The notes beneath the pieces are model-generated. The model worked only from the letters and a program-made list of their open reading frames with translations, was not told where the DNA came from and did no database searches. A program made the translations under genes and the position numbers. 64,000 bases of DNA from Acidocella aquatica. GTDB taxonomy: Bacteria; Pseudomonadota; Alphaproteobacteria; Acetobacterales; Acetobacteraceae. The stretch spans positions 1-64,000 of the forward strand of contig NZ_BSOS01000013.1 of assembly GCF_030160635.1 (NCBI RefSeq), given 5' to 3'. Within the stretch, counting starts at the first letter, position 1, and each line of letters begins with the position of its first letter. Positions 27,213 through 29,837 of this stretch are shown in pieces.

Positions 27213-27270
27213 ACGAAGCGGTCAGCCCCATTCTTCCAAAAATGCGGCTTCCAAAAATGTTCCGATACCA

Positions 27271-27291
27271 GCGGTCATTCATCATGACCGC
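27271..27291. terminator. Hairpin between convergent parC and roadblock-globin gene
   Basis: GCGGTCAT (27271-27278), a 5-base loop, then ATGACCGC (27284-27291). It sits in the 84-base gap between convergent 3' ends. No T-run, so intrinsic termination is possible but unproven. Confidence 0.4.
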
Positions 27292-27296
27292 CGGCA

Positions 27297-28412
27297 TCAG
27301 AACGACAATGCGCGATTCGCCGGTGCAGCGGGCTGTTTTTGGGCCTGACCAAGACGGATCAGCGCGTGATAATATTTGGGGTCGATGAGATACTGGCACA
27401 GGTCGAGCAGCCGCAGCAGCGAGCTGCTGGCCGCGGCCTGTTCGGCGGGGTTGCTGATGTTGGCGGTGAGCAAGGGCGGGAACGCCGCGCGCAGGAAGGC
27501 CATGCTTGCGGCAAAATAGATGGGGGGGATGTTGGCCCGCGTGTGAGCCTCGCCGATATCCTGCTGGCGGCGCACGAAATCAGCCCCGTACTCGCCCTCG
27601 AACAGGTTCTCCAGCCATGCCGTGTGGGTTAATTTGAGGGTATCCACCCGGTTCTGAATGTAGGGGGCCATTTGCGGGTCGGCCAGAAGAACTTTGTAGA
27701 AACGCGCTGTCAGGGATGGCAGGAGCGGGCGCATCAGGCTCCGGAGTGATTTGATGACCGCCTGATCTTCGGGGCTGAAGCCGACATCCTCGCATAAAAC
27801 ATGCAGGGTCTGGTCCTGGGCGGCGGCTTCAGGCGCGTTGTCTCCCGCCGGAGCCTGGTTCGGCTCGGTGGCGGATTTGAGCAGGTAGGTATCGTCCAGA
27901 ACCAGGGTTGGCTCCTCCGCGAATTCTGGCGCGGCGGGAAGTTCGGGGACGGGCTGCGGCGCGGAAGGTGGGGGCTCGGGGGCGGCGGCGGCGGGGAGGG
28001 GGGCGATGAGTTTCGCGGCGCGATGGGTTTCCAGAATGCCGTTGAACGTGTCTTCATGGACCAGAATGCTTGAGACCGCCGCGCTGGCTTCCTGAAACAA
28101 CTGGCCCAGCTTCGCGGATTTCGCGGCAATCGCGCACATCACGGCATCGCGCCCGGCGCGGACGATCAGCACAGAGCCTTGCCGGCCGCTGATCATCACC
28201 TGCTCCAGGCTGCCGCGCGAGAGCTCCATCGCGGTCCGCTCGCCAAGCGAGAGGGTGGCGGCAATCAGGGCGCTGACGCGATCTTCATCCATTCCCGCCG
28301 CGAGGACCGAGGCGATAACGAAACCATCGGTGGATATGAGCGCGGACGCCTGAATATCGGCTGAACTACTGTTCAGGGCGGATAGCAGGGCGGTTATTTG
28401 GTCTTCACTCAT
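27297..28412 (-). CDS. Roadblock/LC7-protoglobin fusion protein
   Basis: 371 residues from ATG 28412 with GGAGG 5-6 bases upstream. Residues ~1-120 are a roadblock/LC7 domain (SADIQASALISTDGFVIASV; DRVSALIAATLSLGERTAME; LEQVMISGRQGSVLIVRAG), the fold of MglB-type regulators of small GTPases. A Pro/Ala/Glu-rich linker follows (about 140-225). The C-terminal ~145 residues are a protoglobin/globin-sensor domain: ARFYKVLLADPQMAPYI, THTAWLENLFEGEYGADFV, and IGEAHTRANIPPIYF, whose His is in the position of the heme-coordinating proximal His. Roughly 70% of its roadblock residues match the separate roadblock gene at 28897. Heme binding and signalling role are inference. Confidence 0.85.
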   Translation of the reverse strand: MSEDQITALLSALNSSSADIQASALISTDGFVIASVLAAGMDEDRVSALIAATLSLGERTAMELSRGSLEQVMISGRQGSVLIVRAGRDAVMCAIAAKSAKLGQLFQEASAAVSSILVHEDTFNGILETHRAAKLIAPLPAAAAPEPPPSAPQPVPELPAAPEFAEEPTLVLDDTYLLKSATEPNQAPAGDNAPEAAAQDQTLHVLCEDVGFSPEDQAVIKSLRSLMRPLLPSLTARFYKVLLADPQMAPYIQNRVDTLKLTHTAWLENLFEGEYGADFVRRQQDIGEAHTRANIPPIYFAASMAFLRAAFPPLLTANISNPAEQAAASSSLLRLLDLCQYLIDPKYYHALIRLGQAQKQPAAPANRALSF

Positions 28413-28896
28413 GACTACCTCCAGCAGGCTTGCCGTCATACCAGCAATAACTAAAACTTCCCAGACAGACATCCCGCCAGGCGGGATTTTATGCAGCATT
28501 TCAACAATTTGATCGTCCGTTCATTAAACGATACATTGCACATAATAAGCAACAATTGCGATGGCTGCCCACCGCAAAGGGCGGGGAACACCGCCCAGGC
28601 GGCTCGCCGGGCTGTTCAAATAATCGTGTTGTTTGATTTCAGTTGTGAAATGCTTTTGCGGCGCAATCGCAACCGCGCGGCCGCGACTTAAAAACGCACG
28701 ATAACCAATTGATAAAAAATAAATAAATTCGGCTTGACCCAGGGTGTTTTTGTTGCGTGGTCAGATCGATATTCCCGGCGCCGCGGCCCGCGCGTAACTG
28801 AACCGTGTTATTAACAAAATATCGTTAGGTATTCGTATTGCACTAAAATAAAAAGCTTTTAGTCTCGGGCGCGCACCCAACTTTTTGGAGGAATTC
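28413..28896. promoter_or_regulatory. Divergent control region of the roadblock-globin locus
   Basis: 484 bases with no gene, strikingly AT-rich in its plus-strand half for this genome. It must hold promoters for both the fusion gene (leftward) and the roadblock-globin pair (rightward). Visible symmetry: a 6-bp-stem hairpin GGGCGG/CCGCCC at 28579-28596, CGCGGCCGCG near 28677, and TGTTATTAACA at about 28804-28814. AT-rich stretches near 28845-28860 could be a -10 region. No certain FNR, sigma-54 or other box was found. Confidence 0.5.
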
Positions 28897-29262
28897 ATGC
28901 GTGAAGACCAGATAAGAACCATTCTGACGGATCTGAACGGGGGTTCCGCCGATATTGAAGCCTCCGCGCTGATATCAACCGATGGCCTGATCATTTCCTC
29001 CGCCCTCGCGGCGGGGATGGATGAAGACCGGATCAGCGCCATGGTTGCCGCCATGCTCTCCTTGGGGGAACGCACCGCCGCCGAACTTTCCCGCGGCAAT
29101 CTGGAACAAGTGATGATCAGCGGCACGCAGGGGCATGTGCTCATCATTCACGCAGGCAATGACGCTGTGCTTTGCACGATCGCCGGCAAGCAGATCAAAC
29201 TTGGGCTGCTGTTCATCGACGCGAGCCGCGCCGCCAAGGCCGCCACCGCGATCCTGCGATAA
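28897..29262 (+). CDS. Stand-alone roadblock/LC7 domain protein
   Basis: 121 residues from ATG 28897 (GGAGG then AATTC before the ATG). The whole protein is one roadblock/LC7 domain and aligns without gaps over ~105 residues with the N-terminus of the divergent fusion protein; by eye about 30 positions differ. Shared blocks include EASALISTDG, LAAGMDEDR and LSLGERTA. Such domains dimerise and in bacteria often act as MglB-like partners of Ras-like GTPases, but no GTPase gene is in the window. The protoglobin gene follows 23 bases after the stop, so the pair is very likely an operon. Confidence 0.88.
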   Translation: MREDQIRTILTDLNGGSADIEASALISTDGLIISSALAAGMDEDRISAMVAAMLSLGERTAAELSRGNLEQVMISGTQGHVLIIHAGNDAVLCTIAGKQIKLGLLFIDASRAAKAATAILR

Positions 29263-29285
29263 ACACTTCCCCGGAAGACATTTCG

Positions 29286-29837
29286 ATGCAACTGCAAAGC
29301 AACGATCCAAACATTCAGACATTTTGGCATGTTTGCGGATTGGATAAAGATGATGAAAGCATCCTCTGGACCGTTCGCGGCTACATCCTGCCGCTGATCC
29401 CGGGTCTTACGGATGCGTTTTATGAAACACTCGCGACGGACCCGCAGACCGCGCCGCTGATCGAGGGGCGTGTCGAACAGCTCAAGCGCACCCATGTTGC
29501 CTGGCTGGAGAGCCTGTTCAATGGCGGCTATGGCGCGGATTTTATCCGCAGGCAGCAGCAAATCGGCGAAGTCCATGTGCGGGCCAAAATTCCGCCGACC
29601 TTCGTTGCGGCAAGCATGAGCTTTTTGCGCGGCGCCTTGCCGGATGTGCTGGCGGCGAACATCGCGGACAAGGACGACGCCAAGGCGGCGATGGGCACGC
29701 TGCTGCGGCTGTTCGATCTCTGCCAGTTCCTGATCGACCGTAGCTATGATGGCACTTTGAGCGATGGCCTGATGGGCAATCTGGGCATCAGCCCGGCCCT
29801 GCTCGCCCGCCTGCAGACCGTGGGCAAAAAAATCTGA
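29286..29837 (+). CDS. Stand-alone protoglobin-type globin
   Basis: 183 residues from ATG 29286 (GGAAG upstream). It is a single protoglobin/globin-coupled-sensor globin: DAFYETLATDPQTAPLIEGR, THVAWLESLFNGGYGADFI, then IGEVHVRAKIPPTFV with the candidate proximal heme His, and LLRLFDLCQFLIDRSYD. The FY tyrosine near residue 48 is a candidate distal (B10) ligand. No output domain is attached; the preceding roadblock gene supplies what the divergent paralogue carries in one chain. Probable O2, NO or CO sensor by family; ligand and partner are inferred. Confidence 0.87.
   Translation: MQLQSNDPNIQTFWHVCGLDKDDESILWTVRGYILPLIPGLTDAFYETLATDPQTAPLIEGRVEQLKRTHVAWLESLFNGGYGADFIRRQQQIGEVHVRAKIPPTFVAASMSFLRGALPDVLAANIADKDDAKAAMGTLLRLFDLCQFLIDRSYDGTLSDGLMGNLGISPALLARLQTVGKKI

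Follow-up and report, generated by a model that had tools for sequence, protein, structure and literature searches.

A roadblock-protoglobin pair encoded both fused and split in Acidocella aquatica, and its relation to small-GTPase loci of other bacteria

The part that bacterial MglA-type GTPases play in motility has been studied in detail; for most of them we know of no environmental signal that reaches them. Here we describe a locus in a stretch of 64,000 nucleotides from Acidocella aquatica (contig NZ_BSOS01000013.1, positions 1 to 64,000), called the window throughout; the genome it belongs to is referred to as G000. At this locus the same two domains, a roadblock/LC7 domain (PF03259) and a protoglobin (PF11563), are encoded twice, as a roadblock-linker-protoglobin fusion on the minus strand and, divergent from it, as a two-gene split pair on the plus strand. 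We regard as new a recurrent protoglobin-roadblock pair with small-GTPase neighbours in one out of three outside-genus loci read, an apparently single-origin fusion, and, in the window's genus, descendants that are GTPase-free and partly heme-dead.

HGbRL of Methylacidiphilum infernorum is a published globin-Roadblock/LC7 protein, for which a relay between the domains was proposed and which was called unique to its genus (PMC4476040). Its N-terminal globin shares 38% identity with HGbI and was placed among flavohemoglobin-like bacterial globins (PMC4476040). The window fusion resembles HGbRL in uniting a heme globin and a roadblock/LC7 domain in one protein. In contrast to HGbRL, its roadblock is N-terminal and its globin scores as PF11563, which sets it outside the HGbRL family as characterised in the passages of that paper on the protein; we infer that the two are of independent origin. 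The view of the first-pass annotation that roadblock is not among the known outputs of sensor globins had to be given up, as HGbRL is already in print, its globin being of a different class and its domain order reversed. Among the matches listed in the open-licence literature, a globin joined to a roadblock occurred only in the HGbRL paper, which leaves absence from print unproven. Globin-coupled sensors (GCS; HemAT, AfGcHK, DosC and the G. sulfurreducens GCS) share the globin fold, the His motif and the Tyr with the window globins and are their best sequence and fold matches; moreover, the globin of the window fusion is likewise covalently joined to a signalling domain. They differ in that the window transmitter is a roadblock placed before the globin, which is thus not N-terminal, and in that a two-gene version exists in the window.

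On the roadblock side, MglA group 3 (Neisseria, Xanthomonas, Stenotrophomonas) combines a GTPase with a receiver-like and a further MglB-like protein (PMC4316618). The closest outside roadblocks stand in runs of just this make-up (small GTPase, receiver-like protein, further MglB-like protein), whereas no such GTPase was found in the window genome and a protoglobin is added. The word 'globin' does not occur in the main text of this survey of prokaryotic Ras-like GTPases (PMC4316618), which counts 328 uncoupled MglB homologues. These orphan MglB proteins are comparable to the window roadblock, which has no neighbouring GTPase; the difference is the putative heme sensor at the window locus, none being mentioned in the survey's passages on orphan MglB (PMC4316618). 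RsbR of the stressosome, a non-heme globin with STAS output (PMC4476040), is a sensor globin without heme ligand, as are four sister fusions described below, but has another output. Finally, the actinobacterial conservon (CvnA-D) differs from the window locus, which holds a roadblock and a globin only; the set of histidine kinase, CvnB, CvnC and CvnD is absent there.

Both window globins (90.7 and 85.3 bits; cut-off 25) and both roadblocks (49.5 and 51.7 bits; cut-off 23) exceed their Pfam thresholds, and together with the coordinates (Table 1) this bears out the first-pass annotation, which had read the same domains as present fused and split. The roadblocks are identical in 76 of 106 residues without a gap, i.e. 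the roughly 30 differences counted earlier by eye; the globins are identical in 78 of 147 residues with 3 gap positions. A phmmer search of the PDB sequences with the fusion retrieved roadblock proteins (9jue, E 2e-15; also 7f8m) and sensor globins (2w31, E 4e-11). Aligned with 8h17, 2w31, 5ohe and 1or4, the split globin places His97 on their IGxxH/IAxxH histidine and Tyr46 on their FY, columns which we take to be the F8 and B10 positions. Both window globins keep the aligned motif His as well as the Tyr of the presumed B10 column, and His290 and His97 of the IGE(A/V)H motifs, proposed as candidate proximal heme ligands, indeed align with the histidine of the solved sensor globins. An AlphaFold2 model of the fusion, built from a 3-row alignment, reached a mean predicted local distance difference test score (pLDDT) of 46 and about 70 in the globin part. 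Its best Foldseek match in the PDB was 2w31 (E 3e-7, template-modelling score 0.86 by target length); the 30 fold matches at E <= 0.001 comprise GCS globin domains, protoglobins and one cyanobacterial globin domain (8h17). That the C-terminal domain might not be a globin, an outcome which would have undone the earlier interpretation, is ruled out by the Pfam and Foldseek matches, and the reading of the locus as sensor globins with MglB-type roadblocks is supported.

The ratio of non-synonymous to synonymous substitution rates (dN/dS) against 5 orthologues was 0.15-0.19 for the fusion roadblock (G032 over 78 roadblock codons only), 0.34-0.40 for the linker and 0.11-0.24 for the fusion globin; the split roadblock gave 0.03-0.19 (5 orthologues) and the split globin 0.06-0.11 (2 orthologues). 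These values indicate purifying selection on the four domains, the linker being least constrained. The locus is not a product of chance, since its domains exceed the Pfam cut-offs, their dN/dS lies at 0.03-0.24 and 16 of the 37 genus genomes have related loci. Orthologous fusions in other assemblies, together with purifying selection, rule out that the fusion stems from a frameshift or an error of assembly.

The survey covered genus, family, class and phylum samples and, in addition, the class of G984, which we take to be Gammaproteobacteria (that of G731 is presumably Zetaproteobacteria). Roadblock domains were present in 55 of the 398 genomes of the phylum sample. PF11563 was then sought in 55 roadblock-positive genomes (54 of these and G319), found in 20 and found adjacent to a roadblock gene in five, four of which belong to a single family (G731, G772, G801, G739) and the fifth, G966, to a second one. 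A roadblock is carried by 71 of the 369 genomes in the class of G984; 64 of the 71 were searched for PF11563, the rest having been covered earlier. Half of them (32/64) have it, and 17 of these 32 carry both domains at most 1 kb apart. Counted by place, 19 of 56 protoglobins lie within 1 kb of a roadblock, compared with about 0.08 expected for uniform placement in a 3-Mb genome, a comparison in which several adjacent cases share a family and hence are not independent. Chance adjacency is rejected at 19 places versus about 0.08. Neighbouring copies of the two genes are thus met again in other families and classes, and the first-pass reading of the fusion as a 'Rosetta stone' for the partnership of the split proteins is well supported. 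There is next to no probability that we are dealing with mere neighbourhood, i.e. unrelated genes carried together: the flanking genes of the window locus (parC, sufE-like, corA-like) do read as housekeeping genes by inspection, but the adjacency recurs in several families and classes, exists in three contexts within the genus and has become covalent in the fusion.

Several gene arrangements were seen beside these pairs. G731 (L117 5827-8536) has a roadblock-globin-roadblock-globin-roadblock array, whose three roadblocks are identical proteins encoded by three different DNA sequences and whose two globin genes differ. G984 (L122 5923-8044) has three tandem protoglobin genes and its roadblock gene elsewhere in the genome. 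Genes for ODP-type diiron proteins (PF19583) adjoin roadblock genes in two families (G795, L128 4467-6975; G772, L118 7457-8597; G739, L120 4689-5854), one of these roadblocks forming, by inspection, the end of an ATPase-like protein. The PF19583-roadblock adjacency is possibly a second oxygen-sensor link.

For the relation to small GTPases, 24 roadblock-globin loci outside the genus were read (19 from the class of G984, 5 from the phylum sample), along with G1228, which has a roadblock and no globin, and the GTPase profile A1 was run against all frames of 60 stretches. A GTPase was present in the same stretch at 8 of the 24 loci. Those of G1235, G1146, G1215 and G1253 matched A1 at E 9e-53 to 1e-63 and those of G731, G772 and G801 at about 1e-110, the latter being part of the alignment behind the profile or closely related to it; that of G966 (E 1e-33) lies just upstream of the roadblock. 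The GTPase frames of G801, G966, G903 and G953 are hidden beneath longer antisense or overlapping frames, and their recovery by the all-frame search strengthens the GTPase link. The runs of G1235, G1146, G1215 and G1253 also hold a G799-type receiver-like protein, identified by inspection (the G1235 copy has no Pfam match), and a protein of about 213 aa, which in G1235 shows a weak roadblock match below the cut-off. In G1235 the GTPase exceeds the Pfam cut-offs for Ras and ATP_bind_1, and the globins of G1235 and G1215 match PF11563. Two further proteins are encoded in the G1215 run, one of the phosphonate-binding type and one that looks PAS-like by inspection. In G772 the gene for an ODP-type diiron protein is followed by those for the roadblock, the globin, a 209-aa protein and the GTPase. 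The Neisseria roadblock is preceded by GTPase-like frames. From the gene make-up we read the GTPases beside the pairs as MglA family group 3.

Among the roadblocks compared, the outside ones closest to the window's split copy lie beside GTPases. The split roadblock is 59-69% identical to those of G1228, G903, G1215, G1146, G1235 and G1253, all beside a GTPase, with G1228 (69%), G903 (63%) and G1215 (62%) as the closest outside roadblocks compared. The G984 roadblock is 58% identical, and its stretch has no GTPase. The closest outside globin to the split globin is that of the G1235 run (43% over 145 residues). A role in type IV pili was given up, as there were TPR matches only and no FimV model.

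Within the window's own group, the protein search covered 61 genomes, 37 of them of the genus (G000 counted), and the 16 carriers hold their roadblock-globin loci in three chromosomal contexts. The first lies beside parC; fusion and split pair are both present there in the window, G015 and G010, G002 has the split-globin frame truncated to 75 aa, and in G022 and G032 the split roadblock is present and a split globin was not found. The second (G017, G009, G031, G006) has fusion and split pair next to different genes. In the third (G034, G011, G020, G007, G035, G016) there is one fusion or two tandem fusions, with or without a lone roadblock. The neighbours, by inspection, are parC and a sufE-like gene, an extradiol-dioxygenase-like gene, and an S24-like regulator with a ClC-like channel, respectively; no neighbour gene common to all three contexts was seen. 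In the samples of the family (Acetobacteraceae) and of the class, roadblock domains are scarce: 7 of the 299 family genomes, belonging to 2 of the 102 genera, have one, and of the 385 class genomes only 1 does, the window's own. A scan of genome contigs with the fusion gave 3 loci, two in sister metagenome-assembled genomes and one a cyanobacterial roadblock. Spread on plasmids was given up as an explanation, since tblastn of plasmids yielded 5 records matching the roadblock part only.

Trees were built with 10 outside globins and 13 outside roadblocks, the truncated G002 globin being dropped. The maximum-likelihood tree of globin domains was rooted on its outside globins; in it the fusion globins, 20 in number, group together in a single clade (SH-like approximate likelihood ratio test, SH-aLRT, 96), which is nested inside paraphyletic split globins. 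This single nested clade makes the split pair look ancestral and the fusion a single event; the fusion probably arose once, as judged from these sequences, and the fusion as ancestral state is rejected by the globin tree. The roadblock tree parts the genus from the outside roadblocks (98).

That there is no GTPase near the window locus had been stated in the first-pass annotation, and this can be extended to the genome: the whole G000 assembly gave 0 matches at E <= 0.01 with two queries, the G799 GTPase and profile A1. The same queries recover an unlinked GTPase in the sister species G007, G016 and G020 (L139-L141). In G016 this GTPase adjoins a 127-aa protein without Pfam match, and homologous frames exist in G007 and G020. 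The remaining A1 matches in the genus are at 18-23 bits in frames of 693-955 aa, which look to us like translation factors, and none of the 20 stretches examined from the genus has an A1 match. The MglB-like protein of about 213 aa was found in 0 of 38 genus genomes, in a search without positive control. Going by these searches, the module appears to operate without a GTPase of this type in 13 of the 16 carriers, G000 among them.

It is unlikely, but deserves to be kept in mind, that the roadblocks have kept a small GTPase as their target in the window genome, one too divergent for the queries or located in a missing part of the assembly. The nearest outside relatives of the module adjoin GTPases, three sisters have an unlinked one, and the window assembly consists of 137 contigs. 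Nevertheless, this assembly is listed as 100% complete, queries that succeed in three sisters fail here, and 13 of 16 carriers show nothing above the background of long-frame matches. Since such a GTPase was not found in G000, the module most likely acts on another partner. We consider it somewhat probable that the locus encodes a heme gas-sensing module of the orphan-MglB type, descended from a GTPase operon and acting on a different partner in the window genome. An orphan MglB without GTPase-activating protein (GAP) activity that interacts with the coupled MglB is described in PMC11112851, and we count this in favour of an orphan-type role.

Further roadblock and globin genes were seen in the genus. 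Contig C65 of G000 (L001 484-2007) encodes a third, separate protoglobin, which by inspection has a methyl-accepting chemotaxis domain behind the globin, as in HemAT. Contig C41 holds a third roadblock gene that stands alone (L052 9509-9874) and is 44% identical to the roadblock of the fusion. Some 170 bp downstream of it begins the gene for a 1741-aa CheB-CheR-PAS-histidine kinase-receiver-LuxR hybrid (L052 4112-9337), which is a candidate partner of the roadblock system. Three sister genomes (L054 9980-11779 and its homologues L055 and L056) have a lone roadblock followed by SCP2-like and phosphonate-binding-type proteins, an arrangement resembling the ends of the G984 and G1215 gene runs.

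The candidate heme-ligand residue varies within the genus and is constant in the globins compared from outside it. In the ligand column of the 28 genus globins there are 21 His, 4 Lys (the context-2 fusions), a Tyr in G016 and a Phe in G035, and the split-globin fragment of G002 ends short of the column. All substitutions concern fusions: 6 of 20 fusion globins are without the ligand His (4 Lys, 1 Tyr, 1 Phe), while 7 of 7 full-length split globins have it. Each genome with a Lys fusion (L042-L045; G017, G009, G006, G031) has an adjoining His-bearing split globin and, conversely, the parC-context genomes without a whole split globin (G002, G022, G032) retain His in the fusion, so that 14 of 16 carriers have at least one His-bearing globin. 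This apparent ligand complementarity between fusion and split globin in the alignments is counted in favour of a gas-sensing complex.

The same residues bear on two other explanations. There is a slim chance that the fusion is essentially a heme-free structural subunit and that the split globin alone senses, as the uneven loss of His and the higher dN/dS of the fusion domains compared with the split ones (same two orthologues) would suggest; the window fusion, however, retains His and Tyr, and the three genomes lacking a whole split globin have a fusion with His. Decidedly unlikely, though less so, is that the globins are enzymes or gas scavengers, e.g. in NO detoxification, with the roadblock providing only oligomerisation or location. 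Nitrite reductase and peroxynitrite isomerisation activity were reported for a protoglobin (PMC4020757), and His and Tyr are kept in 28 of the 28 outside-genus globins compared, which would fit this explanation as well. What speaks against scavenging is that the other genes of the homologous runs seem to encode signalling proteins, namely a GTPase and, partly by inspection, receiver-like and PAS-like proteins, and that the four ligand-less fusions remain open reading frames.

The broader interpretation, to which we give about an even chance, is that roadblock and protoglobin form a recurrent, hitherto undescribed module by which gas sensing feeds into small-GTPase systems in several proteobacterial classes, the gene of a heme sensor having been incorporated into runs of the mglA/mglB type. 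In the window's genus this module would have been cut loose from the GTPase, duplicated and fused into a GTPase-independent roadblock signalling complex with heme-competent and heme-dead subunits. Several observations weigh against the orphan-type gas-sensing module proposed for the window genome. No A1 GTPase was found in 16 of the 24 outside stretches, 8 of which reach a contig end and 8 do not, so GTPase-free roadblock-globin pairs are common elsewhere too; the G739 pair has no GTPase in its stretch, though its family mates have one. In the window genome no downstream partner was identified. Two of the 16 carriers (G016 with Tyr, G035 with Phe) are without any His-bearing globin of this family, exceptions that count against a strict requirement for one. 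The rooting branch of the globin tree is weak (73) and several branches are long, making fine placement unsure, and the roadblock tree does not resolve fused against split copies. Finally, the roadblock half of the model has a pLDDT below 50, and domain packing is not readable from it.

If the module senses gas, it may work as follows. The globins would take up heme and, as its ligand, a diatomic gas, most likely O2, otherwise NO or CO, and the roadblock domains would form homo- and heterodimers, by which split globin, split roadblock and fusion could be united in one complex. Mixed complexes whose make-up varies with the state of the heme, as suggested in the first-pass annotation, may form in this way. 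Gas-driven movement of the globin would then alter the roadblock platform and thereby what it binds. The ancestral target would have been an MglA-like GTPase; in G000 the module would most likely act as an 'orphan MglB' on another partner. In evolutionary terms, an ancestral split pair would have been duplicated and one copy fused once within the genus.

Concerning the layout of the locus (Table 1), the split roadblock and protoglobin genes are separated by 23 bp. GGAGG precedes the ATG of the fusion at 28412; an alternative upstream ATG in the same frame would give a 400-aa form, and the 371-aa start is the common start of three aligned fusions. In the intergenic region, the palindromic core is found in 6 of 6 aligned parC-context loci within a strongly conserved block, and of these 6 only two, the window and G015, have a perfect copy of a longer repeat, CTAAAA-N8-TTTTAG. 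The block at 28820-28866 is possibly a promoter or operator, to judge from its conservation; read by eye, it was not clearly present in the upstream stretches of 8 other loci. The hairpin scan counted 4 terminator-like hairpins, compared with 2.5 in shuffled sequence.

Table 1. Features of the roadblock-protoglobin locus, in positions of the window
Feature	Position	Strand	Evidence or remark
Roadblock-linker-protoglobin fusion gene, 371 aa	27297..28412	-	Pfam; fusions aligned; dN/dS
Fusion, roadblock part, residues 1-118 (Pfam 15-96)	28059..28412	-	Robl_LC7 PF03259, E 3.6e-13
Fusion, Pro/Ala-rich linker, residues 119-198, relaxed	27819..28058	-	alignment of fusions; dN/dS
Fusion, protoglobin domain, residues 201-347	27372..27812	-	PF11563, E 1.3e-25; Foldseek
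Fusion, candidate proximal heme ligand His290 (IGEAH)	27543..27545	-	placed by alignment through the split globin and, from there, solved globins
Stand-alone roadblock protein, 121 aa	28897..29262	+	Pfam, E 7.3e-14; roadblock alignment; dN/dS
Stand-alone protoglobin, 183 aa	29286..29837	+	Pfam, E 5.8e-24; globin alignments; dN/dS
Split globin, candidate proximal heme ligand His97 (IGEVH)	29574..29576	+	aligned to IGxxH/IAxxH His of 8h17, 2w31, 5ohe, 1or4
Divergent intergenic region between the two transcription units, 484 bp	28413..28896	.	aligned in 6 loci
Conserved block 5' of the split pair, palindromic core AAAGCTTT	28820..28866	+	possible promoter or operator
Terminator-like hairpin, end of fusion gene towards parC, 20 pairs counted	27259..27303	-	consensus scan only

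A heme globin that recurs beside roadblock regulators, and in the window is joined to one, would offer a concrete, testable input for MglA-type GTPases, with oxygen or nitric oxide as the signal. How a roadblock regulator functions once its GTPase is gone could be learnt from the GTPase-free form in this genus, and this bears on the many orphan MglB proteins.

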